The translations under genes and the position numbers were made by a program. From Pseudooceanicola lipolyticus (GTDB lineage: Bacteria; Pseudomonadota; Alphaproteobacteria; Rhodobacterales; Rhodobacteraceae), in assembly GCF_002786325.1 (NCBI RefSeq), contig NZ_PGTB01000035.1, positions 1 to 32,044 of the forward strand: a stretch of 32,044 bases of DNA. The letters run 5' to 3'. The notes beneath the pieces were generated by a model that searched no databases, was not told the DNA's origin, and saw only the letters and a program-made list of their open reading frames with translations. Below, one piece after another: positions 13,401-29,608 of the stretch (position 1 is the first letter of the stretch; each line of letters opens with the position of its first letter).

Positions 13401-13521
13401 CATGGGGAAGAGCACTCTGGGACCACTTCGACCCAAGGTGTCGGGTCGAAATGGGGGCAGTTTATGCCCATGGCGGTAGAAGCGAGTTGCTGGGCGGGCA
13501 ATTCATCCCACCAGTTCATCC

Positions 13522-14343
13522 TTATGCCAGAAAGAAGTCCTTAATCAGGCTGTTGAACCGGTCCTTCTTTTCGATTTGCGTCCAGTGGCCGCATTCGCCG
13601 AAGGTGTGCAGTTCCGAGCGTTTCAGCAATTGGTGAAGGCGATGAGAGGACTCCAGGGGGATAACCGCATCCTCGCGGCCGTGCACAATCAGCGCGCGAT
13701 GGGGGAGCGCGGCAATCTTGTCTTCAGGCGTAGACAGCGCGGCGACATGGCGACCGCGGGGTGCCGGGAACATGGCCGAGAAACTTTCCTGATAGCCGGG
13801 GCGTTTGCTGGCGTCGTAACGCGATTTTATCAGATCCTCGGTGATGAGGCTTTTGTCATAGGCAAAGCACTCCATCATGATCTTGCGCATGTTTTCCAGG
13901 CTGGGCTCATAGCCCCAGACGGTGTCCAGCCCCTCTGTCAGACCAAAATCAAGACCGGCCGATCCCATCAGAACCATCCGGTCGACCCGGTCGGGATACC
14001 GGCTGGCAATAGCCAGCGTGAGCCCGCCGCCGAAGGAATTACCGACGAAATGGGCCTTTTCGACACCCGTGGCGTCCATAAATGCGATTGTATGTTCGAC
14101 CCAGCCGTCCAGCGAGTAGGTCTCGTTCTCGTGCCGCTCGGTGTAGCCAAATCCCATTGCATCCGGCGCCAGAACCCGGAAATCGCTGGCCAGATCGGGA
14201 ACTGTCAGCCGCCAGTTGGCATAGCCGGTCACGCCCGGGCCGGAGCCATGCAGCAACAAAACTGCAGGGCCGGTCCCCTCTTCAAGATAGTTGGTCTTCC
14301 GCCCTGCGGCCTCGATTGTCTTGCCGATTTCAGGATTGGTCAT
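13522..14343 (-). CDS. Alpha/beta hydrolase of the meta-cleavage pathway (C-C bond hydrolase)
   Basis: 273 aa, the fold and length of 2-hydroxy-6-oxo-dienoate hydrolases (XylF/DmpD/TodF/CmtE type). Ser103 in GNSFGG, Asp225 in GREDAVIP and His253 in GECGHW form the catalytic triad; HGSGPG (32-37) builds the oxyanion hole. It splits the decarboxylated ring-fission product into 2-hydroxypenta-2,4-dienoate plus a carboxylic acid derived from the ring substituent. Last gene of the long minus-strand operon, two bases after the aldolase stop. Confidence 0.9.
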   Translation of the reverse strand: MTNPEIGKTIEAAGRKTNYLEEGTGPAVLLLHGSGPGVTGYANWRLTVPDLASDFRVLAPDAMGFGYTERHENETYSLDGWVEHTIAFMDATGVEKAHFVGNSFGGGLTLAIASRYPDRVDRMVLMGSAGLDFGLTEGLDTVWGYEPSLENMRKIMMECFAYDKSLITEDLIKSRYDASKRPGYQESFSAMFPAPRGRHVAALSTPEDKIAALPHRALIVHGREDAVIPLESSHRLHQLLKRSELHTFGECGHWTQIEKKDRFNSLIKDFFLA

Positions 14344-14345
14344 TG

Positions 14346-15380
14346 TTAATTCCCTTGTTGCCCTGTTGCGTTGCTGCCGTTCGCCAGGTCCAGTGCGACA
14401 TCGACAATCATGTCTTCCTGCCCGCCGACCATGCGGCGCTGGCCCAGCTCGTTCAGAATAGTGCGTGCATCTATGCCATATTGCGCGGCCGCGCGTTCCG
14501 CGTGCAAAAGAAAGCTCGAATAGACACCGCTATAGCCCAGAGAAAGCGTTTCACGGTCGACCCGGACCGGGCGCTCCTGTAGCGGGCGGACCAGATCGTC
14601 TGCCGCGTCCATCAGCGCGTTGAGGTTGGTGCCCGTATCGTAGCCTTCCCTTTCAAGAACCGCTATCAGAGCTTCGAGAGGCGCATTTCCGGCCCCCGCG
14701 CCCAGGCCCGTCAGGGATCCGTCGACGCGATACGCCCCCTCTTCGACGGCGGCGACCGAAATCGCAACACCAAGCGTGAGGTTGTGATGCGCATGGATGC
14801 CGACCTGCGTTTCCGGCTTTAGCGCCTGGCGCAAAGCGCGCGCCCGCGCCCGCGCGGAACTGACGGTCAACGCACCGGCGCTATCGGTCACATATACGCA
14901 ATGTGCACCGTAGCTTTCCATAAGCAGGGCCTGTTCGGCCAGGGCGCCGGGTTCGTTCATGTGGGCCATCATCAGAAAGCCCGACACATCCATGCCAATG
15001 TCGCGTGCGGTGCCGATATGTTGTCTGGCGATGTCTGCCTCTGTGCAATGGGTGGCCACGCGAACCGACCGGACACCGGCGGCGTATGCCTCTTTGAGGT
15101 CGGCGATTGTGCCGATGCCCGGAACCAGAAGCGTGGTCAGTTTGGCGGTCTTTACCGCGTCGGCCGCGGCGGCGATCCAATCCAGATCGCGGTGGCGCCC
15201 GAAACCATAGTTGAAACTTGTCCCGTTCAAACCGTCGCCGTGGCTGACCTCGATCGCATCAACGCCTGCGGCGTCCAGCGCAGCGGCGATATCTTGCACC
15301 TGGCCGACAGTGAACTGGTGGCGCACCGCATGCATCCCGTCGCGCAGTGTCACGTCTTGGATATAGAGGTTCCTGGTCAT
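14346..15380 (-). CDS. 4-hydroxy-2-oxovalerate aldolase
   Basis: 344 aa, DmpG/MhpE type. Cleaves 4-hydroxy-2-oxovalerate to pyruvate and acetaldehyde. [11 protein letters not shown] supplies Arg13, the metal ligand Asp14 and His17; His196 and His198 in GIHAHHN complete the metal site. A C-terminal [13 protein letters not shown] segment packs against the dehydrogenase partner. The ATG at 15380 overlaps the acetaldehyde dehydrogenase stop by four bases (ATGA), matching the known bifunctional complex in which acetaldehyde is channelled. In-frame extension upstream of this ATG is out of line with family length. Confidence 0.95.
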
Positions 15381-16312
15381 TGCGCGGCCTTTTCTTTCGT
15401 GCGTGCGATCTGTTCGCCGGTTGCCAGCGCCGCCGATGTCATGATGTCCAGATTTCCGGCGTATTTCGGCAGGTAGTGTCCGGCGCCCTCTACTTCGAGA
15501 AACACCGAAACCTTCAGCCCGCCTTCGGCAGGGCCGCCGGGCAGCCCGGCCGCCGCGTTCGGTCCGATCCTTTCGAACTGAACTTCCTGTTTGAGACGGT
15601 ATCCAGGGACATAAGCCCGTACGGATTCGACCATATCCTCGACCGATGCGCGAATAGCTTCCGCGTCGTCTGTCTGGGCCAGGCAATACACCGTGTCCCG
15701 CATCACCAAAGGCGGCTCTGCCGGATTGAGGATAATGATGGCTTTGCCTTCCTCGGCGCCTCCGACCTCACATATTGCGCGCGAGGTGGTCTCGGTAAAT
15801 TCGTCGATATTCGCGCGCGTTCCCGGCCCGGCCGACCTGGAAGAGATCGAGGCGACAATTTCCGCATAGCGCACCGGGGCCACCCGCGAAACCGCGGCCA
15901 CGATCGGAATGGTGGCCTGGCCGCCGCAGGTAACCATGTTGACATTGGCCGCGTCCAAATGGGTGGAAATGTTGACCGTCGGCACCACATAGGGCCCGAT
16001 GGCGGCAGGCGTCAGATCGACGACCCGCTTGCCATCGGCCGTCAGCAACTCGCTGTGCCGGGCGTGGGCCTTGGCGGACGTCGCGTCGAACACCACAGCA
16101 ATGTCGCCATAGCCGGGCATCTGCCGTAAACCGTCGATACCCTCGGCCGTCACCGGGACGCCCAGCTTTTCAGCCCGCTTCAACCCGTCCGAGGCAGGGT
16201 CAATGCCGACAAATGCAGCCAGTTCCAACAGGTCGCTGTTCCGCATCAGCTTGATCATGAGATCGGTGCCGATATTGCCGGTGCCGATTATGGCCGCCTT
16301 TACTTTTGACAT
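15377..16312 (-). CDS. Acetaldehyde dehydrogenase (acylating)
   Basis: 311 aa, DmpF/MhpF type. Converts acetaldehyde plus CoA and NAD+ to acetyl-CoA. IIGTGNIG (8-15) is the nucleotide-binding loop and Cys129 in [10 protein letters not shown] is the thioester-forming nucleophile. Start [10 protein letters not shown] at 16312 gives the standard length. Partner of the following aldolase gene, with which it shares an ATGA overlap; the preceding hydratase ends four bases upstream. Confidence 0.95.
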
Positions 16313-16316
16313 TCTA

Positions 16317-17105
16317 TCACTCCGTGAATGAAACGCTGACATGGCCCAGGCCGCCAATCGAGGCCTGAACCAGTGCTTTGCCCGTGACCGGAGCCATCGG
16401 CCCCAACGCTCCGGACAGGATGATCTGCCCCGCCCTGAGGGGCGTTCCGTTTGTACGCATCTTTTCGGCCAGCCAGGCGACGGCGTTGACAGGGCTGCCC
16501 ATGCAGGCCGCACCGGTTCCGGTGGAAACGGTCTGCCCGTTCAGGGTCATGTCCATTGCGCAGTTGGAAAAATCGAAGCCCAGGGGCGAGATGACCGGAG
16601 CGCCCAGAACCAACAAACCGGACGAGGCATTGTCGGCGATCGTATCGAGCAGGGTGATGTTCCAATCGGCTATGCGGCTGTCCACGATCTCGATTGCCGG
16701 GGCAATAAAGACGGTTGCGCGCAATACATCCGCGGCATTCGGCTGGGCAATATCCAGATCGTCGCCTAGAATAAACGCGATCTCCGCCTCGATCTTTGGT
16801 TGCAGCACGCGGTCCGATGAAATGATACCCCCATCGCCGACAATCATGTCCGACAGCAAGGTGCCGTAGTCCGGCTGATCCACGCCCATCTGAGCCTGAA
16901 CGGCCTTGGCGGTCAGTCCGATCTTATGCCCGATCAACCGGCTGCCCCCGGCCAGACGCCGTTCGATATTGGCCTGCTGCACGGCATATGCGGCATCAAG
17001 ACCGTCGTCCTTGAGATGTTCTTGGATCGGAGCGCACGGCGTTGCTTTCTTCTCTGCCTGCCACAATGCTTCGGCCGCGACTGCCAGGTTATTGTCCAAT
17101 TTCAT
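16317..17105 (-). CDS. 2-keto-4-pentenoate (2-hydroxypenta-2,4-dienoate) hydratase
   Basis: 262 aa, MhpD/DmpE family. Adds water to 2-hydroxypenta-2,4-dienoate to give 4-hydroxy-2-oxovalerate. Metal-binding glutamates Glu106 and Glu108 (KIEAEIAF) and Glu139 ([10 protein letters not shown]) fall at the positions reported for E. coli MhpD, and GHKIGLT (59-65) carries the conserved lysine. The ATG overlaps the decarboxylase stop by four bases, so translation is coupled. Confidence 0.93.
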
Positions 17106-18151
17106 ACGTCCCTCGATTTTTGGGTTTGTGATGGATCGGATGCGGTTTGCCGCAACCCGAGCAAAACGGTCGGCGACTGGTACAGGATGGTATCGGCGGC
17201 AGTTTCAGACAGTGCGCGCCGGATGAACCCTACAGGATCGTTTTCCATGATCAGAAATGGATAGTCGGTACCGGCCAGTATCCTGTCGTGTCCGATGGTT
17301 GTTTCCAGAAACTGCAAGGCGACATCGTCGTAAACGATGCTGTCAAAATAGAATCGGCGCGCCAGTTTGCTGGGCGGCACGGACATGCTGTTCCGGATCG
17401 GCATTCCCAAGCGGTACGCATGATCCAGCCGGGGCAGGATGGCGGGCAATGCACCGCCGCCATGCGAAAGGACAATGCGAAGATTGGGGTGATTTTCCAG
17501 GACCCCACCTGTCATCAGCGACGTGGCGGCGAGAGCTGTCTCAAGCGGAAACGCCGCAATTGCGGCCATTGCCGGTACATCGCCGATCCGCTCGACCCCG
17601 GCCGGATGCAGCGCATGAACCATAACCGTCATGTTCAGCCGTTCGGCTTCGGCAAAGACCGGGGCAAGCGACGGATCGCCCAGGGGCGTACTCTGAACAT
17701 GCGTGCCGATCTCAATCCCTGTCAGCCCCATGTCCCGCAACCCGCTCAGGCTGTGAGCGGCCTTTTCCGGTGTTTGCAGCGGCACCATCCCGAAAGCTGA
17801 AAACCGCTTCGGATAGGTGGCGACCAGGTCTCCGAGAAAGGTATTGACGCAGTCGCAGATCGCCTCTGCATCGTCGGCGCCGAACCAATAAGACAAAAGC
17901 TCCGGCATCGGCGACAACACCTGATGGCCGATCCCCTTGGCCTCCATGTCGGCCAACCTGGCATCGGCGTTCCAGGATCGTGAATCGATCTGGCGAAAAG
18001 ACTTCCCTCCGATCACGATCCGGGCCGTGCCGTCCTGTTCATGTACAACGGAGGGCCAGAGCGCATCGCGTTCTGTTCCGTCCGGAAACTGATCGGGCAC
18101 GACGTGGCTATGGACATCTATTGCCCCAGATGAGCGCAAATTCTTCACCAC
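17102..18151 (-). CDS. Amidohydrolase-family decarboxylase, ACMSD-like
   Basis: 349 aa TIM-barrel metal enzyme. Residues fit alpha-amino-beta-carboxymuconate-semialdehyde decarboxylase: His14 and His16 (DVHSH), His179 (VMVHA), catalytic His230 (LSHGGG) and Asp296 (GTDYP). ACMSD decarboxylates the 3-carboxymuconate semialdehyde formed by 3,4-cleavage of 3-hydroxyanthranilate; the analogous step here would remove the carboxylate from the product of a 2,3-dihydroxybenzoate-type substrate. I chose GTG 18151, which has a GGAAG ribosome site five bases upstream; a TTG at 18214 would translate through a strong hairpin. The stop overlaps the hydratase ATG. Confidence 0.85.
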   Translation of the reverse strand: MVKNLRSSGAIDVHSHVVPDQFPDGTERDALWPSVVHEQDGTARIVIGGKSFRQIDSRSWNADARLADMEAKGIGHQVLSPMPELLSYWFGADDAEAICDCVNTFLGDLVATYPKRFSAFGMVPLQTPEKAAHSLSGLRDMGLTGIEIGTHVQSTPLGDPSLAPVFAEAERLNMTVMVHALHPAGVERIGDVPAMAAIAAFPLETALAATSLMTGGVLENHPNLRIVLSHGGGALPAILPRLDHAYRLGMPIRNSMSVPPSKLARRFYFDSIVYDDVALQFLETTIGHDRILAGTDYPFLIMENDPVGFIRRALSETAADTILYQSPTVLLGLRQTASDPSQTQKSRDV

Positions 18152-18180
18152 AGTATCTTCCGTGTTATCATCCAGCCAAA

Positions 18181-18209
18181 CAGCTTTCCGTCCATCAACC
18201 GGAAAGCTG
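18181..18209 (-). other. Intercistronic hairpin before the decarboxylase gene
   Basis: CAGCTTTCCG and its exact complement, 10-bp arms with a 9-base loop, lie in the 93-bp gap between the extradiol dioxygenase stop and the GTG start of the decarboxylase. No adequate T run follows on the minus strand (only TGTTTGG), so an mRNA-stabilising or processing element, or a weak attenuator, is likelier than a full terminator. Confidence 0.6.
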
Positions 18210-18244
18210 CGCAAACGCGCTTACATGCGCCTTCGGAAGGCATA

Positions 18245-19099
18245 TCAGTTCTCGAGGCCGTTCAGATTCGATTTCGCGCCCCACATGCAAAGGCTGAAAG
18301 GTTCGAAACCGAACTGGCGTTCTCTATACGTTTCTTCGTCTACCTTGTTGACACCAACTGAGTATTCGAATGTCATCCCGTCAGGGCCCTGGAAATAAAC
18401 AAACCGGGCACCGGACGTCGGGTGACGTCCCGGACCGAAGGTAATCGGGACGTTATGTTGTTTCAGCAGATTGTACGAACGCATGATGTCATCGGTCGAT
18501 TCAACCTGATGGTTGATATGCTGGAGTCCGCCGCGCCCTGCAGGGACAAGAGCGAGCGTATGATGAATCTCATTCACGCGCAAAAGCGGAACGTCTCCGA
18601 TACGGTCACTGACGCGGGCGTTGCAAACCTGGGTCCAGAATGCTTCATCCCGCTTGCAGTCTTGGCTGAAAATGCCGACATGGCTGAAGCCGGAGATTCC
18701 GGCGTCCCGGCTCGGAAAATGACGCTTGCCCATAATCTCTGGCTGAACTACCAGCTCGATTTTCAGGCCACTGGGCTCTCGGAAAGCAACGAAGTCTCTT
18801 ACATGACGGGAATCGCATTCGTCGCGGGTGCCCCTATGCAGATCGTGTCCAAGATCTTCGAGAGTCGCAGCCGCGATTTCAAGTGTCTGACTATCGCGGA
18901 CTTCGAAACCGACGACGTGGTCGTTGGGGTCCCCTTCGTGGTAGTATAGGGTATGTCCCCGTTCATCTGATCTGAGGTGTCGCGAATTGCGGCTGCTTTC
19001 GGAAACCTCCAGGCCCAGAATTCTCGTCGCGAAGTCGGTGCTGGTCTGAATATCTTTTGTACCCATCCGAACATAGCATACATCAAGCAGTTCAATCAT
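18245..19099 (-). CDS. Type I extradiol ring-cleavage dioxygenase (VOC family), catalytically complete
   Basis: 284 aa, two-domain vicinal-oxygen-chelate protein. The Fe(II)/Mn(II) triad is intact: His140 (GFSHVGIF), His194 (LQHINHQV) and Glu245 (MTFEYSV), matching BphC His146/His210/Glu260. The acid-base histidine region (EIHHTL, 177-182) and His226 (GRHPTSG) are also present. By position in the pathway it cleaves a 2,3-dihydroxybenzoate derivative beside the hydroxyls (3,4-cleavage in the p-cumate analogy). It starts inside the stop of a closely related homologue (overlap 19096-19099) that lacks these ligands. Confidence 0.9.
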   Translation of the reverse strand: MIELLDVCYVRMGTKDIQTSTDFATRILGLEVSESSRNSRHLRSDERGHTLYYHEGDPNDHVVGFEVRDSQTLEIAAATLEDLGHDLHRGTRDECDSRHVRDFVAFREPSGLKIELVVQPEIMGKRHFPSRDAGISGFSHVGIFSQDCKRDEAFWTQVCNARVSDRIGDVPLLRVNEIHHTLALVPAGRGGLQHINHQVESTDDIMRSYNLLKQHNVPITFGPGRHPTSGARFVYFQGPDGMTFEYSVGVNKVDEETYRERQFGFEPFSLCMWGAKSNLNGLEN

Positions 19100-19986
19100 C
19101 TTGTGCCCACCTTTCTGTTATCTTGGGTTTCCCAATCGGCTCCCCAGCGTTCGGGAATCAGACCATCGGAGTTCCACATGCAAAACGAGTCGCGCGCGTT
19201 TCTGAATTGTCGCGCGGTCCAGTCAGGCTCAACAGTTTTCATTCCGGTCCCGTAAGACACGATCAGGTCCTCGGGCCCCTGGAAGTACAGAAAAACTTCG
19301 CCACTTGCGGGATCGCGCCCGGGACCATCGAGGATTCGCACCTGTTGACTGGCAAGCAAATACTTGCTGCGCATGATATCGTTCAGGTCGCCTACCTCGA
19401 AATTGACGGATAGCAGCCCACTCCGCTGGCTTGGGTAGTAAGCGATGCGGTGGTGTCGTTCATCAAAACCCAGCTGACCGCTTTCTCCGGCAAAGTCCCG
19501 CACCCTGGCGCCGAAAACCTCGGTCCAGATCGCCATGTCGCGCTCGGGGTCAGGGCTGCGCAGATCAACCGACGAAATCGCTTTGATGCCGGCATCGCGG
19601 GCGGGGAAAAACCGCTGGCTCTTGTTTTCGTGGCGCACAACGATCTCGAACCGGTTGCCGGCGAAATCTTCAAAGGCCACCGCATCGCGGTAGAGCTTTC
19701 CGGCACAAACCTCTGCGGACAGCCGCGCGGGCTCAAGTCCGCAGGCGGTGAGCTTCCCTGTGATGTCGTCAAGATCGGTCTGGTAACGGACACTGAGCCC
19801 GACAACCGGCTTGCTGGTCGCGCCGGTGGCGTCGCATTCTACTGAATATGATCGCTCGTCGGATCGGAATCGGGCGATGTCGTCACTGCCGTCCGCAGAC
19901 TGAAGCCCGACCGCGCCTCCAAGGAACCGATGGAAAGCATCCAATTTTTTTGCCGGGTACCGAACAAAACGAAGCTCTTCAATCAT
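19096..19986 (-). CDS. Extradiol dioxygenase homologue lacking all three metal ligands
   Basis: 296 aa, clearly related to the next gene (shared RDAGI, GL..VN..V, NDIMRS, GPGR.P.SG, YFQGP, FCMW). At the three metal positions it has Ser139 (ISSV), Ser193 (LLSVNF) and Ser244 (IVSYGTG) in place of His, His and Glu. The His226 equivalent is Asp225. The fold-forming residues, Tyr245 and the RHH motif (177-179) are kept and the frame is intact, so it looks maintained rather than decaying. It is probably a non-catalytic partner of the active dioxygenase or a binding protein for the catechol. ATGA overlaps tie it to livG upstream and the active enzyme downstream. Confidence 0.85.
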   Translation of the reverse strand: MIEELRFVRYPAKKLDAFHRFLGGAVGLQSADGSDDIARFRSDERSYSVECDATGATSKPVVGLSVRYQTDLDDITGKLTACGLEPARLSAEVCAGKLYRDAVAFEDFAGNRFEIVVRHENKSQRFFPARDAGIKAISSVDLRSPDPERDMAIWTEVFGARVRDFAGESGQLGFDERHHRIAYYPSQRSGLLSVNFEVGDLNDIMRSKYLLASQQVRILDGPGRDPASGEVFLYFQGPEDLIVSYGTGMKTVEPDWTARQFRNARDSFCMWNSDGLIPERWGADWETQDNRKVGTR

Positions 19987-20801
19987 ACCGGGGTCACCCT
20001 TTCTTCCTGCGGTGCGGCCACATCCGCGCCTGCTAGCGTCAGTTGAGTCGTGCCAAGGTAGGCCCGAACCACTTCAGGGTTATCCAGCACCTCATCAGGA
20101 GGTCCGTCTCCGATCGACCGACCGTAATCCAACACATGGATACGGTCCGCAATCGCCGCGACCATTTCCATGTCGTGTTCAATCCAGAGCATTGGAATTC
20201 CCAGCTGCTTCTTTGCGGCGTCGATATGGTAGGCAAGTTCTTCGCGTTCTTCCTGGGTCAGTCCCGCGGAAGGTTCGTCCATCAAAAGAACTTTCGGTTC
20301 GGCCACCAGCGCCCGCCCAAAGCCGATGATCTTCTGAATTCCAAAAGGCAGACCGCCGACAGGCAAATGCGCCAGATGGGTCAGCGACAACATCTCAAGC
20401 ACGACGTTGACCACAGCGAGATGCTCGGCCTCTTCGCGCCGTGCCGACGGCAGTCGTAACCATTGTTCCGCAAGTGTCGCCTTGAGATGGTTGTGCCGGG
20501 CCACAAGCAAGTTCTCACGTACATTCATCCGGGGGATCAGTTCGGCATGTTGAAAGGTGCGCCCGATTCCCATTTCCGCAATGGCACTGGGTTTCTTGCC
20601 GATTAGGGACGTGCCGAGAAAGTCGATCTGACCCGAGGGGCGATAGATCCCGCTGATGCAGTTAAAGATACTGGTCTTGCCTGCCCCGTTTGGTCCGATC
20701 AGCGCCAGCAATTCACCCGACCGAACACCCAGCGAAACTCGGTTAAGGACGACCAGACCGCCAAAATGAAGTTCTACATCCTTGAGTTCAAGGTCATACA
20801 T
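19983..20801 (-). CDS. livG: ABC transporter ATPase, LivG family (second importer)
   Basis: 272 aa. Walker A GPNGAGKT (36-43), Q-loop in RTFQHAEL, signature variant LPFGIQK (151-157), Walker B VLLMDEP (171-177), H-loop His209 (WIEHDME). ATG 20801 follows a GAGGAGCGAG ribosome site; longer in-frame readings run into the preceding livF gene. Overlaps livF by 8 bp and the VOC homologue by 4 bp. Supplies ATP hydrolysis for the minus-strand importer. Confidence 0.92.
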   Translation of the reverse strand: MYDLELKDVELHFGGLVVLNRVSLGVRSGELLALIGPNGAGKTSIFNCISGIYRPSGQIDFLGTSLIGKKPSAIAEMGIGRTFQHAELIPRMNVRENLLVARHNHLKATLAEQWLRLPSARREEAEHLAVVNVVLEMLSLTHLAHLPVGGLPFGIQKIIGFGRALVAEPKVLLMDEPSAGLTQEEREELAYHIDAAKKQLGIPMLWIEHDMEMVAAIADRIHVLDYGRSIGDGPPDEVLDNPEVVRAYLGTTQLTLAGADVAAPQEERVTPV

Positions 20802-21594
20802 TTGCTCGCTCCTCGCGTCGGCGCCGCGCATTAGCCAGATAGTCGGCGCGGCCCGCGCTTCCGGTCCCAAGGTACAGTTCCAGGATTTTCTGATTGGTCC
20901 GCAGGTCTTGGGTTGCACCTTCAAGCTCGACTTTGCCGTTCTCCAGAACGAAGCCGTAGCTAGCCAACGCAAAAGCCACCGCGGCGCTTTGCTCGACCAA
21001 GAGTATGGATAGTTCGGTCCGGGCGTGAATGTCGCGCAGCCGCTCGATGATCTCGTCGACGATCACCGGAGCCAGCCCCAGCGACAGCTCGTCGATCAGC
21101 AACAGGCTCGGCTTGCAGACAAGCGCGCTGCCAATCGCCAGCATCTGACGCTCACCCCCTGACAGCAAGCCAGCCGGTTTGTTCCTGAGTTTTGCCAATC
21201 TGGGAAAATAGACAAAGATTTCGTCTTCGATCTGCCGCCAGTTGCTGCCTTCGGCACGCGTGGTCGAGACAACTTCCAGGTTCTCGGCAACAGTCAGGTT
21301 GGTAAAAACCTTGTCCCGCTCGGGGACCAGAACGATACCCTTGTGGATCGTTTTCGGAAGCTGAAGCCCGGTGATGTCTTCACCGAAATACCGTACGTAG
21401 CCGGCTGTCACCCGTGCATTGTCCAGCCCGATGAACCCCGAGATCGCCCTGAGCGTGGTCGATTTTCCAGCACCGTTGGCCCCCAAGAGCGCGGTAATTT
21501 GCCCTTTCGCAACCCGCAGATTGACACCGTGCAACGCCCGGATCGAACGTTGATAGGTGACTTCAAGGTCCGTGACTTCCAGAATGTCTGTCAT
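20794..21594 (-). CDS. livF: ABC transporter ATPase, LivF family (second importer)
   Basis: 266 aa. Walker A GANGAGKS (38-45), signature LSGGERQ (144-150) and Walker B LLLIDEL (164-170). The proline normally following the catalytic glutamate (DEP) is leucine here, a conservative oddity. The C-terminus is extended by a basic stretch (ANARRRREERANV). Overlaps livM by 4 bp and livG by 8 bp. Confidence 0.92.
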   Translation of the reverse strand: MTDILEVTDLEVTYQRSIRALHGVNLRVAKGQITALLGANGAGKSTTLRAISGFIGLDNARVTAGYVRYFGEDITGLQLPKTIHKGIVLVPERDKVFTNLTVAENLEVVSTTRAEGSNWRQIEDEIFVYFPRLAKLRNKPAGLLSGGERQMLAIGSALVCKPSLLLIDELSLGLAPVIVDEIIERLRDIHARTELSILLVEQSAAVAFALASYGFVLENGKVELEGATQDLRTNQKILELYLGTGSAGRADYLANARRRREERANV

Positions 21595-22646
21595 GGCGTG
21601 TCCTCCCGTTTCGACGGCGATGCGAATTGACCGACAATGCGTTTCCAGATGCCGATCAGGCCGCTGGGTTCAAAGACCAGAAACAGGATCATCAGCAGAC
21701 CAAAGGCCGCATAGGAAGCCGAAGAAACCGTCGTGATGTCCAGCCCGATATAGGGCACCGCTTCCATCAGCCATTCAACGAAATAGGGAACCAGCGTGAC
21801 GAACACCGCTCCCAGCAGGGCCCCCGGCAAGCTGCCCATTCCGCCAATGATGATCATCGCGATGTACTGGATGCTCAGGAACAGCGTGAAGGCTTCAACT
21901 GAAACGAAGTTCTGGTAGTAGGCGAACAACGCGCCCGAGAACGAGGCGATTCCAGACGTGATGACGAAGGCCAGCAGCTTGTAATTGGCAACCTGCACGC
22001 CAAGAGCCTCGGCCGCTGTTTCATTCGCATGCAGGGCCTCCCAGGCGCGGCCTGTCTTGGAGTTCAGCAGATTGCGACACCCCCAGTAGGTGCCCGCGAC
22101 CAGCGCCAGAAGCACATAGTACCAGGCGTATCCGTCATAAATCTCGAACCCGAAAACCACTGGCGGATCGAGGAAAATACCCGTCGAAGCGCCGCTGGCG
22201 AATTCGTATTCGCCTCCAAGGTAGATAACGAGAAAATGCAGCGCCAATGTGCTCATCGCCAGATAGATGCCGCGGAGCCGCAAGGACGGCAGGCCGAAGA
22301 TCAGGCCAATCACCGCGCCGGCCACGACCGAAGCCGGAAGGGTGATCCAGATACCCGCACCCGTTTCCTTGTAAAGGATCCCGGTGGTAAATGCGCCAGC
22401 CGCCATCAGGCCGCTATGACCCAGAGAGATCTGTCCCGCAATACCGGTCAGAACCATGAGCGCCAGTGCTCCGATGCCCGCGATAAAGATCTGCGACGCG
22501 ATGTCGAGATGAAATGGCGTGGCCGAGGTTGGCAAAAGGACAAGCAGAACGATCAAACCGATCCAAGCCACCTGATTCTGGCTTAGTCGCTTTCTAAGTT
22601 CTGTGGCAGGGGCCATTTTTCCGATGCCGGTTTCTATATTAGACAC
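21591..22646 (-). CDS. livM: ABC permease, LivM family (second importer)
   Basis: 351 aa inner-membrane protein. LivM hallmarks include LTGIAGQISLGHSGLMAAGA and IIGGMGSLPGALLGA, with multiple hydrophobic segments and a short hydrophilic tail. It overlaps livH by 8 bp and livF by 4 bp. Not closely similar to the plus-strand LivM, so the two importers are separate acquisitions rather than a local duplication. Confidence 0.92.
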   Translation of the reverse strand: MSNIETGIGKMAPATELRKRLSQNQVAWIGLIVLLVLLPTSATPFHLDIASQIFIAGIGALALMVLTGIAGQISLGHSGLMAAGAFTTGILYKETGAGIWITLPASVVAGAVIGLIFGLPSLRLRGIYLAMSTLALHFLVIYLGGEYEFASGASTGIFLDPPVVFGFEIYDGYAWYYVLLALVAGTYWGCRNLLNSKTGRAWEALHANETAAEALGVQVANYKLLAFVITSGIASFSGALFAYYQNFVSVEAFTLFLSIQYIAMIIIGGMGSLPGALLGAVFVTLVPYFVEWLMEAVPYIGLDITTVSSASYAAFGLLMILFLVFEPSGLIGIWKRIVGQFASPSKREDTP

Positions 22647-23511
22647 GATTGAGTTCCTCCTTGGTGCCGTACAAGCCCCAGGGCCGGACGATCAGAATTG
22701 CGATCAGTACAAGGAACGGCACGACATCGGAGAGAAGCGGATTAACGTAATGGATCAGAAGCACCTCCAGGGCCGCGATGACACCCGCGCCGATCAACGC
22801 ACCGGGCAGGCTGTCCAACCCGCCAACAAGTGCCGCCGGAAAGGCCTTGAGCCCGATCACCGCCATGTTCACGTCGATACGGGAATCGATGGTGACAAGT
22901 ACTCCCGCCAGTGACCCCGAAAAGGTCGACAGGGTCCAAGCCAGGGCATAGACGGTATGAAGGTTGATCCCGCGTTGCGCCGCCAGCAGCGCATTCTGTC
23001 CAGAGGCACGCATCCGCATGCCCCAGCGTGACATGTGAAGAAATGCCAGAAGCCCTAGGTAGACCAGGAACGTGCAGACAACGAGCCACAGCGCGGCGGT
23101 GGAAACCCGGACCGAGTCGGTAAGTGCGATCGAGGCATTGTCGAAGCTGATCATTGCCGCAACGTTCAGTTGTTGTGGCCCCCAGATCAGGACCATTGCG
23201 CCGCGCAAAAGAATGCCCAACGCTACGGTTGTCAGAACGGCGGCCAAAACCGGTTGTCCCGTCATCTTGCGCATTAGCAGCAGATAGACGGACAACCCGA
23301 CAACGATCGAAAACATCGCGGTGAGGGCAATCGCGACGAGAGGATCCGAGGCGATACCTGCCGATGTGGCAACCAACAGGTAAGCCCCCAGGATCATGAG
23401 TTCGCCATGTGCCAGATTCAGGACACGGCTGACTTTGTACACCAGGACATAGCCGCTCGCGACAAGAGCGTACAATGACGTCAAAACAACGATGTTTGCT
23501 AGAATTTGCAT
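22639..23511 (-). CDS. livH: ABC permease, LivH family (second importer)
   Basis: 290 aa, highly hydrophobic. The N-terminal SLYALVASGYVLVYKVSRVL and NLAHGELMILGAYL segments are typical of LivH, as is the C-terminal GGLDSLPGALIGAGVI loop. Follows the binding-protein gene by 25 bp and overlaps livM, in the usual order SBP-H-M-F-G. Confidence 0.92.
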   Translation of the reverse strand: MQILANIVVLTSLYALVASGYVLVYKVSRVLNLAHGELMILGAYLLVATSAGIASDPLVAIALTAMFSIVVGLSVYLLLMRKMTGQPVLAAVLTTVALGILLRGAMVLIWGPQQLNVAAMISFDNASIALTDSVRVSTAALWLVVCTFLVYLGLLAFLHMSRWGMRMRASGQNALLAAQRGINLHTVYALAWTLSTFSGSLAGVLVTIDSRIDVNMAVIGLKAFPAALVGGLDSLPGALIGAGVIAALEVLLIHYVNPLLSDVVPFLVLIAILIVRPWGLYGTKEELNRV

Positions 23512-23536
23512 GATAAGCTCCTGTCGCGCTCAGGCC

Positions 23537-24706
23537 TCATTCGACCTCGTAGGCCTTCCAGTCCCGTGCGATCTCCATCGCGCCCTTTTCGTCGCTCCAG
23601 CGATAAGCGCGGTAATAGATGGTTTCGCGGAAATGATTGTCATCGGTCCATGTGATCGGACCTCCGCGCAATCCCTTGGTGTCGATTTCGATGTTGCTCA
23701 TGACGGCATTAATCGCCTCGGCGCTTGTGTCTTCGCCAAGCTGTTCAAGAACTCCCTCGACGACGATGCCGCCGACCCATCCGTCGAGAATGGCCTCTGG
23801 ATGCAGGTTGGAACCGGATTCCTTCACCGCATTGACAAGGGCTTGCGTGGCTTCGCTGTCTTCGAACAGCATCACGTTGGTTCCCAAGGTGAAAAGGTTC
23901 GGGTCCTTCATTTTCATCATCTCAAGTTCGGCCTCAGCCAGATGGCCGACGTAAGCGTTGCCTTTCCAACCCTGCTTGCGCAGCGCATCGACGAAACGGA
24001 TCTGCACGGCCCACGGTGCCCAGGACAGAACTGAATCGGCTCCATTCTGAATCAGTTTGGTTGCGAAGGATGTGTAGTCAGCCGTACCTGGCGGCGCGAT
24101 CTCGACGCCGGCCGATTTCATGTCAGCTTTCAATACCATCCGTTCGGCTTCTTCCATCCCCGCCCGCGAGATTGGAATGCCCATGGCGGAAAATCCGACG
24201 GTGGCATCGCTGCTTTCCCGGTCACGCAGGTAATCGACCATTGCGATGCTGTCATGAACTGCGGAAAAGCCCGTCGAACAATACAAGAGTGGTTTGGCCG
24301 GCGGCATCGTCTCTGCAGGACAGACCGAACCGGCAAACAAAACGGGCACTTTCCTGCGCGTCGCCTGGCTGATGATCGGGGCGAAGGTTGCCGATGTGCT
24401 GACCGAGATGATCATCTGCACATCGTCCTGGGTCAGAAACCTTTTGGCGTTGCTCGCCGCCCGCGATGCATCCCCCTGGTCGTCATAGATCACCAGCGAC
24501 ACGGTCTTTCCGTTGACGCCTCCCGCTTCGTTCAGGCGGTCGAGGTACAGCTTCAAACCCTCGGCCGGCGCGGCATATGTGCCAGCGGCCCAACCGCTCA
24601 GTGCAGCACTTACCCCGATCACGACCTCGTCATCGGCAGCCAGCGCCGGTCCTGCGGCAACTGTGGCCGACAGGGCCAAGCTCTTGGCAAACTGTTTAAT
24701 TTTCAC
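23537..24706 (-). CDS. Periplasmic substrate-binding protein (second importer)
   Basis: 389 aa type I periplasmic binding protein with a Sec signal peptide (KIKQFAKSLALSATVAAG, cleavage after PALA near residue 25) and mature start ADDEVVIGVSAALSG. GTG 24706 is chosen because a GGGAGGAAAAA ribosome site precedes it and it places the signal peptide at the N-terminus; an upstream ATG would add a run of non-signal residues. Distinct in sequence from the plus-strand pair. By context it binds the aromatic acid degraded by the enzymes of this operon. Confidence 0.9.
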   Translation of the reverse strand: MKIKQFAKSLALSATVAAGPALAADDEVVIGVSAALSGWAAGTYAAPAEGLKLYLDRLNEAGGVNGKTVSLVIYDDQGDASRAASNAKRFLTQDDVQMIISVSTSATFAPIISQATRRKVPVLFAGSVCPAETMPPAKPLLYCSTGFSAVHDSIAMVDYLRDRESSDATVGFSAMGIPISRAGMEEAERMVLKADMKSAGVEIAPPGTADYTSFATKLIQNGADSVLSWAPWAVQIRFVDALRKQGWKGNAYVGHLAEAELEMMKMKDPNLFTLGTNVMLFEDSEATQALVNAVKESGSNLHPEAILDGWVGGIVVEGVLEQLGEDTSAEAINAVMSNIEIDTKGLRGGPITWTDDNHFRETIYYRAYRWSDEKGAMEIARDWKAYEVE

Positions 24707-24753
24707 GGTTTTTCCTCCCATAAGTGACAGCACAAAATTCATAGCCCTTGCCG

Positions 24754-25449
24754 TCATGACTGTTCGACGGGCCAATCGATGTTTTCGCGTTTCAACGCAT
24801 CGACCATCATGGTTTTCCAGATGGCGGTGACTTCGGCATATTTTTCGGCATTGCTGTCCCAGAGCGTCCGCATTGCGTAACCCCGGACCATATTGAAGGT
24901 CATGTAGACCAGGTTCTCGGCTAAAGGCGGCGGCATGTATTTGGACATGACTTTGACCCATGCGGCCTCGATCGGCAGACGCGCTTTCTGCGACGCCTCC
25001 AGGATCTCGGTCTTCAGATCGGGATCCGTGTTCGCGGACAGAACAATGTCCAGAACGCTGAAGAAATGCTCCCCCAGAAAGAAGCTTTCTGCATCCCTAA
25101 GCATCTCGTCGAAAATTTTGCTCTGGTCGGTCGCTGCTTCAGCGCCCTCGACGCTTTTGTCGACGGCAATTTGGTAGAGGTGCTCGTGAACTGCCAGGAT
25201 CAAATCCCGTTTGTGACGGTAATGATGCAGCAGTGCGCCCCTCGATACCCCGGCGTTTTGCACCACCGCTTCGGTGCTGAACCCGGAAAACCCACGTTCG
25301 CGCAACACTTCGATTGAGGCCGATATGAGGCGTGATCGCATTTCTAGGCTGCGTTCGTCTTGCGACCGTGAGGCATTGACCACATCGGCGTCCGCCTTGT
25401 CGCTCTGTTTGTTGGAGGAAATTTTAGTATTCAATGGATACCTTTCCAT
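24754..25449 (-). CDS. TetR-family regulator, CymR-like
   Basis: 231 aa. An N-terminal helix-turn-helix (about 58-81: FSTEAVVQNAGVSRGALLHHY) follows an unusually long polar leader of some 35 residues. The ligand domain carries stretches that, from memory, resemble the cumate repressor CymR of Pseudomonas putida (MLRDAESFFLGEHFFSVLDI, TFNMVRGYAMRTLW). CymR represses p-cumate genes and is released by p-cumate. The 5' end overlaps the ferredoxin gene by 26 bp, so it is expressed from the operon it probably controls, giving autoregulation. The likely target is the inverted repeat at 29724-29745. A TTG start a few codons downstream, after AAGG, is an alternative. Confidence 0.88.
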   Translation of the reverse strand: MERYPLNTKISSNKQSDKADADVVNASRSQDERSLEMRSRLISASIEVLRERGFSGFSTEAVVQNAGVSRGALLHHYRHKRDLILAVHEHLYQIAVDKSVEGAEAATDQSKIFDEMLRDAESFFLGEHFFSVLDIVLSANTDPDLKTEILEASQKARLPIEAAWVKVMSKYMPPPLAENLVYMTFNMVRGYAMRTLWDSNAEKYAEVTAIWKTMMVDALKRENIDWPVEQS

Positions 25450-25750
25450 CCGCGACGAAAACAGCGTAGGTTTTCAACGGAATTTCGCAGGGCATCAGTC
25501 CGGGTTCGCCCGTGGTCACGTCGAAGGTTCCGAAGTGCCACGAGCATTCGACAAACTTTCCGCACAATTCGCCTTCTTCGGACAGCGAAGCCTCGCCATG
25601 CGAGCATTGGTCCTGAGTGGCAAAGAAGTTGCCATCGACATTGTAGACGGCGATGACGTCTCCATTCGGCAGGGTCTCGGCACGTATTTCGCCTTCCGGC
25701 AAATCTTCGGCGGGGAAAAGAGCCAAGATCCTTTTTGTATCTTCACTCAT
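25424..25750 (-). CDS. Rieske-type ferredoxin of the ring-hydroxylating dioxygenase
   Basis: 108 aa, normal length for a dioxygenase ferredoxin. The [2Fe-2S] cluster ligands are visible as CSH (QDQCSHGEAS) and CSWH (ECSWHFGTFD). Carries single electrons from the ferredoxin reductase to the terminal oxygenase. ATG 25750 begins MSEDTKRILAL and overlaps the SDR stop by four bases (ATGA). Confidence 0.93.
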   Translation of the reverse strand: MSEDTKRILALFPAEDLPEGEIRAETLPNGDVIAVYNVDGNFFATQDQCSHGEASLSEEGELCGKFVECSWHFGTFDVTTGEPGLMPCEIPLKTYAVFVADGKVSIEY

Positions 25751-26514
25751 AGCATCGTGCTCCCGCCATTTACCGAAATCACCTGTCCGGTCACGAAACT
25801 CGCTTCGTCCGAGGCCAGGTAACTTACCATCGAAGCGACTTCGCTCATTTCCGCCGGTCGCCCCATCGGGATCACACTGAGAAATTTCTCTGCCAATATA
25901 GGATCGCGTTCGGTAATCTCGGCCATTTGCGGTGTGTTGGTCGCGCAAGGGGCCACCGTATTCACGGTAATCCCGTCAAGGGCGTACTCCCGGGCCAATC
26001 CGGTGGTCATGCCGTGCATGCCGCCCTTGGCCGCATTATAGGCGGCATGATCCCACAGACCGTTTCGCACGGAATCCGCACCAACGTTCACGATCCGCCC
26101 GCCACGCTGTTCGCGCATGACAGGCAACGCGTGCCAGCAGCACCAGATCGCCGTCCAAAGATTTCGGTCAATGGTTTCACGAAGGGTGTCGGGCGTATGT
26201 TCGGCAAATGCTCTGATGATCCCGCCACCTGCATTATTGACCAGAATGTCGAGCCGTCCGTATGCGTCAATGGCCGCATCGACAGCCGTCTTCGCAACGG
26301 ATTCGTCCGCGAGGTTTCCGGGAACGACCACCGGGGGCTTTCCTTGAAAATGTCGCGCTGCCATTTCCTCGGCCGCCGCGGTCGCTTCGGTCTCGTCGAA
26401 ATTGGCGATCACCAGCCGCGCCCCGTCTGCCATCAGACGTTCAGCGATGACCAGACCAATTCCGCGCCCCGCTCCCGTTATCAGGGCAACCTTGCCTGAC
26501 AGTTTTCCACTCAT
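25747..26514 (-). CDS. SDR oxidoreductase, probable cis-dihydrodiol dehydrogenase
   Basis: 255 aa classical SDR: TGAGRGIG (13-20), NNAG (93-96) and a complete catalytic set Ser148, Tyr159, Lys163 (YNAAK). Next to a Rieske dioxygenase, the expected job is NAD-dependent oxidation of the cis-dihydrodiol to the catechol (CmtB-like step). ATG 26514 follows GAGGGGAC; upstream in-frame Met codons would run into the hairpin in the preceding gap. Confidence 0.88.
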   Translation of the reverse strand: MSGKLSGKVALITGAGRGIGLVIAERLMADGARLVIANFDETEATAAAEEMAARHFQGKPPVVVPGNLADESVAKTAVDAAIDAYGRLDILVNNAGGGIIRAFAEHTPDTLRETIDRNLWTAIWCCWHALPVMREQRGGRIVNVGADSVRNGLWDHAAYNAAKGGMHGMTTGLAREYALDGITVNTVAPCATNTPQMAEITERDPILAEKFLSVIPMGRPAEMSEVASMVSYLASDEASFVTGQVISVNGGSTML

Positions 26515-26537
26515 AGTCGGTCCCCTCATTCTTCGTC

Positions 26538-26568
26538 GATCGCGCCCCTGCAAGACCGGGGCGCGATC
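26538..26568 (-). other. Intercistronic hairpin after the dioxygenase beta gene
   Basis: GATCGCGCCCC and its exact complement form an 11-bp GC-rich stem with a 9-base loop, in the 62-bp gap between the beta-subunit stop and the SDR start. No T run follows on the minus strand. Likely an mRNA 3'-end-protecting or processing structure that would favour oxygenase mRNA over downstream genes. Confidence 0.65.
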
Positions 26569-26576
26569 CGTTCGTG

Positions 26577-27092
26577 TTACAAAATTATGCTGATCCGGCC
26601 CTGATTACGGAGGCCGTTGGTATCAAGAACAACACGCTTGGACCTGATCCGGATTTTGCCGTCCGAAACCTCCAGACCGTACAGGAGCTTGCCAAAGAAG
26701 ATGTTGCTGAAGTCATCCTTGGTTCGATAGGTCAAAAAATTACACGCGACTTCAACCTGACCGTCATCTTGCGAAAGGATACGAACATTCGACACCTGAT
26801 GGCGGGTTTTTGAATGCGGATACTCCGCATGGGCGGTCCGCTTCATCAATCGCTTGACCCGTTCGCCCAGCCGGTACCTGTCATCCGCGATGTAAAACAG
26901 GTTGTTGTCGGGTGACGCATCGGCGGGAATGTCCGTCGGCGGAATCTGATAGGTCGCATCGTCGGTGAATAGATCCAGCCATTCCGGCAGCCGCCATTCG
27001 TCAAGAAGCTCGGCTTCGGCGTAAAGAAAATCCTCTACTTCCGACCGCGTGAGCGTCCCGGCGTCAGATCCCTTTTCTGTTGCAACGTTCAT
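26577..27092 (-). CDS. Aromatic-ring-hydroxylating dioxygenase, beta (small) subunit
   Basis: 171 aa, NTF2-like small subunit. Recognised by the N-terminal [24 protein letters not shown] block, the ARHxVSN-like [11 protein letters not shown] segment and the terminal [10 protein letters not shown] stretch. It has no redox centre and assembles with alpha into an alpha3beta3 oxygenase. The start overlaps the alpha stop by four bases (27089-27092), so the subunits are translationally coupled. Confidence 0.93.
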
Positions 27093-28375
27093 GTCCGCTC
27101 TCCCTGGATTTGTTCAGGGCCGGTAAGGCGGCGGCTCCATTCGCGCCAGAACGCACGCATCTGCTCTTCGTCGTCCATCGCTGGCTGTTCCAAGCCCATG
27201 CCCTTTGATATGTCGTTCCACCGCACTTCCTGACTATTACGATAGCCCAGCTGGCAATGTTCCAGCGCCTCTACGTCATCCGGAGTGGCAAAGCCGCCGG
27301 GCCCGAGGAACTCCAGAAAGTTCGACAGGCGGAACTTGCGAGCCGCCGCGCTCTCTTCCTGCGGTCCGGCCGCCCAGGCATTGACGTGAAGCAGGTTTGG
27401 CGATTGCGGGAAGAAGGTGCGGATCGTCAGCGACATGATGTCGTTGATGATCAGGTTAGGGAAAATCAGCAGGTTGCGGTTCTTGTAAGCGATCCGGTCT
27501 GCTTTCTCCTTGCCGTATAGTTTTTCGTTCCGGGCGTTAAGAGCGTCGATCTCTTTCTTCCCTTCATCGCCCCAGAGTGACACCCATTGACCGGCAGGCC
27601 GTCCCCAGGGGGCGCTATATTCGATCACGCCGTGGCCATTGCCTAGATCCTTTCCAACACCGCTCAACGCGACATTGGTCAGGCCGCCTTCCATGGACTT
27701 AAGGTAGTCCAGGTAGGTCGCATGGGTGCTCGTCGCGTGATAGCCGTCGATGCTGTTTTCTACCAGCAGCTTCCAGTTCGCGTTCATCGCGTATTCCTGG
27801 GTGCCGCCAATGACCTCCATGCCGTCAACCGACTGATCGAAGATCACATCCAGATATTCCTTGGCGTTGCCAAGGTAATCAACAAGCGGGATTACTTCAG
27901 GGTCGTAGCACAAGAAATACAGCCCGCGATAACTTTCCAGCCGGGGCACCTGACGCATGTTGGAATCAGGGTCGTTCTTGAAGTCGTGCCCATAGCTTTC
28001 TTCGCCCGGCTGATTTCTCAGCGCGCCGTCCTGGCCGAAGACCCAACCGTGATAGAAACACTGAAAGGACTTGGCGTTGCCTTTGCGTTCACGGCAGACT
28101 TGGGAACCCCGGTGGGGACAGGAATTGAACAGCGCCCGGATGTTGCCCTGGCGGTCCTTGTTGAACAGAATGCTGCGGCCGCCGACCACTCGGGTCACAA
28201 AGTCACCCGGTTTCTTTAGTTCCGATTCGTGGCCGAGATAAAGCCAGCAAGTGGAAAAGATACGCTCGCGCTCTTTTACGAACACATCCGGGTCAGTAAA
28301 GTTGTTTCTGGAAACCTTGAAGAGATGCCGATCGTTGTCGATCATCACCAAGGGATCGTTTCCGTTGGGCTTCAT
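27089..28375 (-). CDS. Aromatic-ring-hydroxylating dioxygenase, alpha (large) subunit
   Basis: 428 aa terminal oxygenase subunit. The Rieske cluster is bound by Cys86/His88 (CPHRG) and Cys106/His109 (CFYHGW). The mononuclear iron is bound by His213 and His218 in DGYHATSTH, with Asp210 as the bridging aspartate and an acidic ligand around Asp366/Asp367 (TPDDVEALE). Catalyses NADH- and O2-dependent cis-dihydroxylation of an aromatic ring. Context (carboxylate-retaining downstream route, CymR-like regulator) points to a p-cumate-2,3-dioxygenase-like reaction on a substituted benzoate, but specificity cannot be read from these motifs. Confidence 0.93.
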
Positions 28376-28405: not shown

Positions 28406-29608
28406 TCAGGCGGGAATTGCCTGTCTGAGTTTGTAAGCGGGGTCCTCGATGGCGGCCCGCTCCAGCCGGATGCCGTTTCCGACCAGTTTACGTATTGCGG
28501 CCATGTCCTTGGGAACATTGATTGTGGTGCCCCCGACGATTTCACCGCCCCGCAAGGCGATGACGGCGAAGCGACCGCTGGCAGGATCACCGCGCAAGAC
28601 GGTCTCTTCACCGATGCTGTCGCCCGCCACCTGAATGTTCATGCTATACTGATCGGACCAAAACCACGGCGCAGCCTTTGCCGGCTGCGCCGTGCCTGTT
28701 ATGGACGCCGCGGCGATGGCGGCCTGCTGGTTGGCATTCGCCCAGGTCTCGATCCGCATCCAGCGATTGTGACACCGGCTGAACTGTTCGGTCGCATCCC
28801 CGACCGCCAGCACACCGCTGCTTTCGGTGACGGCCCTGTCGTCGACCCGAAGCCCCTGCGCGCCCTCTGGCAAACCGATCATGGCGGCAATCCCGCGCGG
28901 CGGCTCCACCCCGATGCCGACTACTACAAGATCGGCGCTTTCCACCGATCCATCGCTCAGCGTGGTGTCGCACCCCGACGCCGAGACCGGCCTTACATCA
29001 TACCGGAAACGAACGCCGTTCCCGGCGTGTAGCCGTTCCAGATGTTCGGACGCCTCCGCGGGCAGTCCCCGTTCAAATAGACGTGAGCCGGCCTCGACCA
29101 CAGTCACGTCGCAGGTCCCCGCTGCCGCTGCGGCAACTTCCAGTCCGATGATCCCGCCGCCCACGATCAAGATCTTTCCACCCATAGCCATCCGTTCGCG
29201 GATGGCAGCAGCGTCCTCGATCGTGCGCAGGACATGGATCGGCACGGTCAACCCGGCAAGCTGATCACATTGCCGGGCGCTGGTACCCGTCGCCAAAACC
29301 AGATGATCATAGGAAAGCTCCTCGCCCCCGGCGAGCGCCACGACCCGAGCGTTGGGATCGGCGTCGACGACGGGGCTGCCCAGCCGCAAATCTATTTCGG
29401 CGGCGCTCCAGTCGCCCTGCGCCTTCATGAAACGAGTCGACCAAGCCGGATCTGTCAGCATTTCCTTGGATAGCTGGGGTCGCTCATAGGGCAGATGCGG
29501 CTCCGCCCCGACCAGAACGACCGAACCGGAGAATCCCGCCGAACGGAGTTCCAGCGCGACTCGGGCCCCGGCCTGACCGGCGCCAACGACAACGACTCGT
29601 TCGGTCAT
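28406..29608 (-). CDS. Ferredoxin reductase of the ring-hydroxylating dioxygenase
   Basis: 400 aa FAD- and NADH-dependent reductase (BphA4/CmtAa type). VVGAGQAG (7-14) binds FAD, LATGTSAR (105-112) is the conserved ATG motif, IVGGGIIGLE (148-157) binds NADH and VLAVGDATEQF is the second FAD contact. It passes electrons from NADH to the Rieske ferredoxin encoded downstream. First large gene of the operon. Its ATG has only a weak, distant ribosome site and overlaps the stop of a 20-codon leader ORF, implying coupled translation. Confidence 0.92.
   Translation of the reverse strand: MTERVVVVGAGQAGARVALELRSAGFSGSVVLVGAEPHLPYERPQLSKEMLTDPAWSTRFMKAQGDWSAAEIDLRLGSPVVDADPNARVVALAGGEELSYDHLVLATGTSARQCDQLAGLTVPIHVLRTIEDAAAIRERMAMGGKILIVGGGIIGLEVAAAAAGTCDVTVVEAGSRLFERGLPAEASEHLERLHAGNGVRFRYDVRPVSASGCDTTLSDGSVESADLVVVGIGVEPPRGIAAMIGLPEGAQGLRVDDRAVTESSGVLAVGDATEQFSRCHNRWMRIETWANANQQAAIAAASITGTAQPAKAAPWFWSDQYSMNIQVAGDSIGEETVLRGDPASGRFAVIALRGGEIVGGTTINVPKDMAAIRKLVGNGIRLERAAIEDPAYKLRQAIPA

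Follow-up and report, generated by a model that had tools for sequence, protein, structure and literature searches.

A type I extradiol dioxygenase homologue lacking its metal ligands and its ligand-complete neighbour in Pseudooceanicola lipolyticus: a candidate non-catalytic subunit

Introduction

Why would a bacterium keep an intact gene for a ring-cleaving dioxygenase without metal ligands directly beside a complete copy of the same enzyme? In aromatic degradation, type I extradiol dioxygenases belong to the textbook enzymes and are annotated gene by gene; the question is raised by two adjacent genes of Pseudooceanicola lipolyticus (RefSeq assembly GCF_002786325.1, contig NZ_PGTB01000035.1). 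They lie in a stretch of 32,044 nucleotides (positions 1 to 32,044 of the contig; hereafter the window), and both encode proteins of the vicinal oxygen chelate (VOC) fold. We refer to the ligand-less type, exemplified by P1, as subunit A and to the ligand-complete type, exemplified by P2, as subunit B. We propose that P1 is probably a subunit without catalytic function in a heteromeric extradiol dioxygenase acting on carboxylated catechols, analogous to AmnA of another superfamily.

19096..19986, minus strand: P1 (subunit A), VOC-fold extradiol dioxygenase homologue without canonical metal ligands and with Asp225 at the second-sphere His (translation, alignments)
18245..19099, minus strand: P2 (subunit B), ligand-complete type I extradiol dioxygenase (translation, alignments)
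19096..19099, minus strand: overlap of the end of P1 with the start of P2, 4 bases (coordinates; a spacing of -4 is also found in 35 of 79 related pairs)

Sequence and predicted fold of P1 and P2

The open reading frame (ORF) of P1 translates into 296 amino acids without an internal stop, and that of P2, directly downstream, into 284 amino acids. The two proteins are 38% identical by BLASTP (107 of 283 columns, E = 6e-54), and the alignment places Ser139, Ser193, Asp225 and Ser244 of P1 opposite His140, His194, His226 and Glu245 of P2. The three serines also occupy the metal-ligand columns in alignments to the solved extradiol dioxygenases 3b59, 1kwb and 1dhy (1kwb being, according to its structure title, the His145Ala mutant of BphC). 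P1 is therefore without the 2-His-1-carboxylate metal site, having Ser139/Ser193/Ser244 in its place, whereas P2 is predicted from its residues to possess a complete site together with the second-sphere His (His140/His194/Glu245 and His226). Translation and alignments thus confirm the preliminary description of P1 as an intact frame with three serines and Asp225 next to a ligand-complete neighbour.

Both P1 and P2 match the Pfam family Glyoxalase (PF00903). The Pfam search returned no LigB-type model for either, so that neither belongs to the AmnAB-type fold, and the 50 fold matches listed for each are all VOC enzymes. The best solved sequence match of both is PDB entry 3b59, a Mn(II)-bound 'glyoxalase' of Novosphingobium aromaticivorans, the sequence of which has the metal ligands, unlike P1; no close solved relative by sequence was found for A or for B. 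When the chains were predicted singly, P1 was confidently modelled over its whole length as a complete two-domain type I extradiol dioxygenase fold. The P2 monomer model has a confidence of 84.9, with residues 258-274 under 50.

Loss of the metal site in subunit A

To place the pair among its relatives, 84,980 species genomes were scanned with an alignment of B, using two peptide patterns; a match to either sufficed, and one covers His194 and His197. The definition of B rested on its residues, in part on His197, and a ligand-complete subgroup of relatives with Phe at that position is termed F. The scan, which was queried by B only, found 270 relatives; the best 80 of these were returned ranked by similarity to P2 and therefore lean to paired alphaproteobacterial B. 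Several of the 80 loci share a genome in some cases. All 80 B have His/His/His/Glu at the catalytic sites, a retention that is partly by construction because one search pattern spans His194. His197 (motif QHINHQV) is His in P2, in paired B and in three single B, and Phe in F-type relatives.

An A gene was found at 79 of the loci, and the canonical site is lost throughout. The second and third ligands are missing in 79/79 A and the first in 71/79, the remaining eight still having His at the first site; neither the second His nor the third Glu occurs in any A, and His226 is kept in two. All three ligands and His226 are among 17 columns that are conserved in active relatives and lost in A. What takes their place varies. 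The first site most often holds Gly, Ser or Ala, the second Tyr, Gly, Ala or Val, the third Ser or Thr, and position 226 Glu or Gln; Cys, Asp and Gln also occur. The triple serine itself, which we had considered as a conserved feature, is present in only 5/79 A, in addition to the window and the copy on a Pseudosulfitobacter plasmid, and was rejected as such. Scattered changes at these sites were to count against the preliminary description, and they are what is seen as regards residue identity, but the loss of the site is uniform. The conserved trait is the loss of the metal site and not the identity of the replacing residue.

Conservation of the A-B pair

The order A then B, with A directly upstream, is found in 79/80 loci. 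The spacing is -4 in 35/79 pairs and no more than 50 bases in 75/79 (with starts chosen by script), and the A frame is open over its full length in 78/79. One further VOC ORF, at L088 (HHYHE, A-profile score 36), was left out of the A count. The exception to the pairing, L096, belongs to a genome (G1468) that has an A at another locus (L148), there beside a B with an internal deletion. The expectation that A always adjoins an active copy is thus borne out at all loci except this one, the genome of which nevertheless has A elsewhere. At L148 (2930-4244) A is followed by a B without its middle, the full-length single B being that of L096, which may reflect a real rearrangement or an assembly fault.

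Neighbouring genes received a label when they were at least 40% identical to genes of the window or of two annotated records. Counted by label and strand, 13 kinds of gene occur as the nearest labelled one upstream of A in 64/79 loci, TetR being found in 28; the bond between A and B therefore outlives changes in its surroundings.

The pairing was also observed in taxonomic samples. All ten genomes matched by P1 among 395 of the family (E up to 1e-30) carry an adjacent dead and active gene. In the class sample (385 genomes, P1, E up to 1e-25) 17 genomes matched, seven with a dead-active pair, the window's own included, and ten with ligand-complete F-type proteins only. With P2 as the query (E up to 1e-40), seven of 398 genomes of the phylum matched: five with pairs (two already counted), one with an F-type single and one, the non-alphaproteobacterial genome G1020, with a single B. 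The three samples together hold 20 distinct genomes with B, with A adjacent in 19, and at these thresholds no A without B was found in any of them. Another 369 genomes from the class of G1020 yielded G1020 itself and one distant match only. Three genomes (L028, L029 and L031) have two tandem F-type copies, both ligand-complete and neither dead.

Selection and history

The ratio of nonsynonymous to synonymous substitution rates (dN/dS) of A is well below 1. With the tie to the active copy, this bears out the suggestion that selection maintains A in a role other than that of an ordinary oxygenase. In a careful unrooted tree of 71 rows, A falls on one side of a single branch (100/100), as do paired B (100/98, a set that takes in L096, whose own locus is without A) and F (98/90). 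Three single B (Caballeronia L129, Cupriavidus L130 and G1020) fall outside paired B, and a quick tree of 113 rows agrees. The trees fit a single origin of A, which would since have stayed with one lineage of B. A grouping of A with paired B is not rejected (approximately unbiased test, p-AU = 0.22), so that A may have split off either before or after the B/F divergence.

A proposed heteromeric dioxygenase

P1 and P2 are proposed as partners because the pair is conserved, the canonical site is lost, the predicted fold is intact, selection is purifying, A forms one clade and its B partner forms another. A complex of P1 and P2, dependence on it and the class of substrate are inferred. A mixed oligomer is the most economical reading, with P2 carrying the iron and P1 structural or regulatory. 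P1 and P2 would be the two subunits of one ring-cleavage enzyme. P1, presumably unable to bind iron or to cleave the ring, would join P2 in the oligomer and there stabilize or order it, possibly in the C-terminal segment of P2, or shape substrate access. P2 would hold the iron and open a carboxylated catechol, for which the Rieske oxygenase and dihydrodiol dehydrogenase encoded in this cluster are the probable source. Decarboxylation of the ring-cleavage product would fall to the amidohydrolase encoded next to P2, and breakdown would be completed by the hydrolase, hydratase, aldolase and aldehyde dehydrogenase. A single gain of the dead subunit is probable, in a lineage with relatives that lack it.

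There are precedents for such an arrangement. The α subunit of AmnAB is homologous to the β subunit and has lost the site. This 2-aminophenol 1,6-dioxygenase (AmnA/AmnB or CnbCa/CnbCb) is a two-subunit heteromer with its active site in β (excerpt of PMC4250580). P1/P2 would likewise be a heteromeric extradiol dioxygenase with one type of catalytic subunit; however, AmnAB belongs to the LigB superfamily (type II) and has another fold, and its complex is established, whereas P1/P2 are VOC proteins known from sequence. In trypanosomes a dead paralogue, the S-adenosylmethionine decarboxylase (AdoMetDC) prozyme, activates its sister by heterodimerization (excerpt of PMC6221367). The mechanism resembles that proposed for P1, but it has been demonstrated experimentally for the prozyme, and the family, host and reaction differ.

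Among type I enzymes the nearest comparison is the 2,3-dihydroxybenzoate 3,4-dioxygenase OpaC, a protein of 285 amino acids whose gene clusters with those for a Rieske oxygenase, a dihydrodiol dehydrogenase and an amidohydrolase-type decarboxylase, and which is 55% identical to DhbA and 51% identical to PsbC2 of Rhodopseudomonas palustris no. 7 (PMC6362003, here and below in excerpt). The decarboxylase that accompanies DhbA, likewise a 2,3-dihydroxybenzoate 3,4-dioxygenase, is a class II aldolase (PMC6362003). Genes of the same kinds surround P2 and its relatives, although in the excerpted text OpaC and DhbA are described without a second subunit (PMC6362003). P2 is taken to belong to the DhbA/OpaC/PsbC2 group by its length and gene context, and not by alignment to those sequences. 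The name PsbC2, published in 2000, suggests that tandem genes were seen then and that PsbC1 may be an A. The 2,3-dihydroxy-p-cumate 3,4-dioxygenase CmtC acts in a pathway in which decarboxylation follows ring cleavage (excerpt of PMC5224996), the same class of reaction as proposed for P2. It is longer (about 312-314 amino acids), is listed as one gene (PMC5224996) and is 26% identical to OpaC (PMC6362003).

A heteromeric ring-cleavage dioxygenase with one catalytic subunit is thus known for the LigB superfamily. For type I, searches of the open-licence PubMed Central (PMC) literature showed neither such a heteromer nor anything recognizable as an extradiol dioxygenase with a dead VOC subunit, though both genes may have been noticed earlier, in the work of 2000 on psbC2. 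In two annotated records both copies are annotated 'VOC family protein'. A broader proposal, by analogy with the prozyme, is that a widespread class of type I enzymes treated as single-chain is obligately heteromeric, a dead VOC subunit having been recruited once and the catalytic subunit having become dependent on it; we regard this as plausible, at somewhat short of an even chance. If the dead copy is required, enzymes assayed from the active gene alone may have seemed poorly active or unstable. Because partnerless relatives still exist, the lineage would also allow the fixation of a pseudoenzyme subunit to be tested cleanly.

Alternative explanations

The main rival to a subunit role, which we consider rather unlikely, is that P1 is a separate ligand-binding or activator protein that binds the catechol or product, or loads or protects the iron of P2, without being a stoichiometric subunit. 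The pocket is partly retained in A: the HH motif is nearly invariant (among 89 unique rows, His178 in 100% and His179 in 98%), most A keep the Tyr245 position and in some clades the replacements are fairly uniform, with Tyr at the second ligand in 23/25 or Gly in 19/20. The near-constant adjacency and the 1:1 gene ratio, however, are better suited to a subunit, and the A of L049, which is 94% identical to P1, has Gln at the second His of the motif.

The same motif also speaks for P1 as an enzyme that converts the ring-cleavage product by metal-free chemistry, such as an isomerase, tautomerase or hydrolase. VOC folds carry varied chemistry, and His178 and His179 could serve as acid or base. We think this improbable. 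The conserved residues of A, such as Asp131 and Asp164, are mostly common to the active enzymes; the eight positions that are conserved in A and different in B include one Asp (also Asp in F) and one Glu but no His or Cys; the HH pair is altered in L049, as noted above; and the cluster already encodes the downstream enzymes.

It is very improbable that P1 is an unconventional oxygenase that binds its metal through other residues. Homology places His178, His179 and Asp225 within or close to the former active site, and residues that could coordinate a metal do occur at single sites (His in eight, Cys in four and Asp in three at the first; Tyr in 29 and Asp in two at the second; n = 79). Position 226, however, may be Glu, Gln, Arg, Asp or yet another residue, Ser or Thr occupies the third site in 69/79, and no A-specific trio of His, Asp, Glu or Cys is conserved across the columns of the A alignment. 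That P1 is a decaying duplicate kept only by its operon position is scarcely credible: A does diverge faster than B, its ligand sites vary and one of the 79 is frameshifted, but the 78 full-length frames, the dN/dS well below 1, the single old clade and the confidently predicted fold led us to reject a pseudogene, and neither frequent broken A beside intact B nor a dN/dS near 1 was seen.

Observations weighing against a subunit role

Several observations weigh against the proposal that P1 is a subunit of a P2 enzyme. OpaC (51% identical to PsbC2, taken as a B) was active alone in Escherichia coli extract (PMC6362003). B-like genes occur without A in Caballeronia and Cupriavidus plasmids (plasmid record only) and in genome G1020. 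At L123 (Metarhizobium album) the A is frameshifted (about 7150-8001, split over two frames) and B is intact; the split may be a real frameshift or a sequencing error. When clades were cut at 55% identity and those with fewer than four non-redundant rows, the window's own included, were left unscored, the former ligand columns were of average or lower conservation in the four scored clades.

The remaining points concern the comparison of distances, for which the 79 rows are 78 loci and the window (L123 was omitted for its frameshifted A, and the B start of L119 was set by hand). A and B distances correlate with r = 0.85, a value reached in 0 of 1000 permutations. Over 34 rows, however, the correlation is 0.91 for A-B versus 0.92 for A-Rieske α. 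Since A correlates as strongly with Rieske α, the mirror-tree signal reflects co-inheritance and no specific contact, and it was rejected as specific evidence for A-B contact. The nearest neighbours of A and B agree in 46/79 rows, and A evolves faster than B (mean distance 0.79 versus 0.30). Finally, the lower confidence of the P2 model is only a hint of a missing partner, because the P2 alignment is less diverse (mean column identity of 72%, versus 46% for P1).

Substrate class and gene cluster

An amidohydrolase (38) or a class II aldolase (23) is encoded at 61/80 loci; these are the two kinds of decarboxylase reported to act after 2,3-dihydroxybenzoate cleavage (PMC6362003). The 19 loci with neither include the Sphingopyxis group and some short contigs. 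From these decarboxylase-like genes, P2 would be expected to cleave a carboxylated catechol of the 2,3-dihydroxybenzoate or 2,3-dihydroxy-p-cumate type.

The minus strand of the window carries a meta-cleavage operon. Upstream of P1 are genes for a probable ferredoxin reductase, Rieske oxygenase α and β subunits, a short-chain dehydrogenase/reductase (SDR), a Rieske ferredoxin, a TetR regulator and a branched-chain-type ATP-binding cassette (ABC) transporter; downstream of P2 are those for an amidohydrolase, a hydratase-like protein, acetaldehyde dehydrogenase, an aldolase and a hydrolase. The order is that annotated on the Pseudosulfitobacter plasmid.

28406..29608, minus strand: probable ferredoxin reductase (annotated FAD-dependent oxidoreductase in the Pseudosulfitobacter copy)
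27089..28375, minus strand: ring-hydroxylating dioxygenase α subunit (Pfam, NCBIfam)
26577..27092, minus strand: ring-hydroxylating dioxygenase β subunit (Pfam)
25747..26553, minus strand: SDR, by inferred role a probable cis-dihydrodiol dehydrogenase (annotated SDR in the Pseudosulfitobacter copy)
25424..25750, minus strand: Rieske ferredoxin (Pfam Rieske; annotated in the Pseudosulfitobacter copy)
24754..25449, minus strand: TetR/AcrR-family regulator of the cluster (annotated in the Pseudosulfitobacter copy)
19983..20801, minus strand: LivG-type ATP-binding gene of an ABC transporter (start set at the Met of MYDLELKD; its positional counterpart in Pseudosulfitobacter is annotated ABC transporter ATP-binding protein)
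17102..18214, minus strand: amidohydrolase-family gene adjoining P2, probable decarboxylase of the ring-cleavage product (Pfam Amidohydro_2; OpaD precedent in PMC6362003)
16317..17105, minus strand: 2-oxopent-4-enoate hydratase-like gene, FAA hydrolase family (best NCBIfam models below cut-offs)
15377..16513, minus strand: acetaldehyde dehydrogenase (acetylating) ORF, true start probably near 16312 (TIGR03215 above cut-off)
14346..15686, minus strand: 4-hydroxy-2-oxovalerate aldolase ORF, true start probably near 15380 (TIGR03217 above cut-off)
13522..14343, minus strand: α/β hydrolase resembling meta-cleavage-product hydrolases (HsaD and BphD models lead, below cut-offs)

The ATP-binding gene overlaps the start of P1 by 4 bases, just as P1 overlaps P2. 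The 4-base overlap had been read as translational coupling that spoke for selection on P1; the overlap is real but, because the gene upstream of P1 overlaps too, it is an operon-wide trait, and it was rejected as specific evidence for the pair.

A 13.6 kb portion of the cluster (window 13512-27099) is 97.4% identical to that of Chachezhania antarctica (L050), and near-identical copies are found in a Marivita metagenome-assembled genome and in Oceanicola. The Pseudosulfitobacter copy, with protein identities of 76% (P1) and 88% (P2), lies on a plasmid typed as conjugative. The cluster appears to move between marine roseobacters. By eye, the ORFs at 30538-31985 at the edge of the cluster look like an IS3-type transposase pair, and the annotation of the Pseudosulfitobacter plasmid likewise shows an IS3 transposase close to the cluster. 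Elsewhere in the window two tandem similar proteins (7362-8600 and 8696-9946) look by eye like ABC-type substrate-binding proteins, in a plus-strand cluster that seemingly also encodes a coenzyme A (CoA) ligase, an ABC transporter, an enoyl-CoA hydratase and an electron-transfer flavoprotein.
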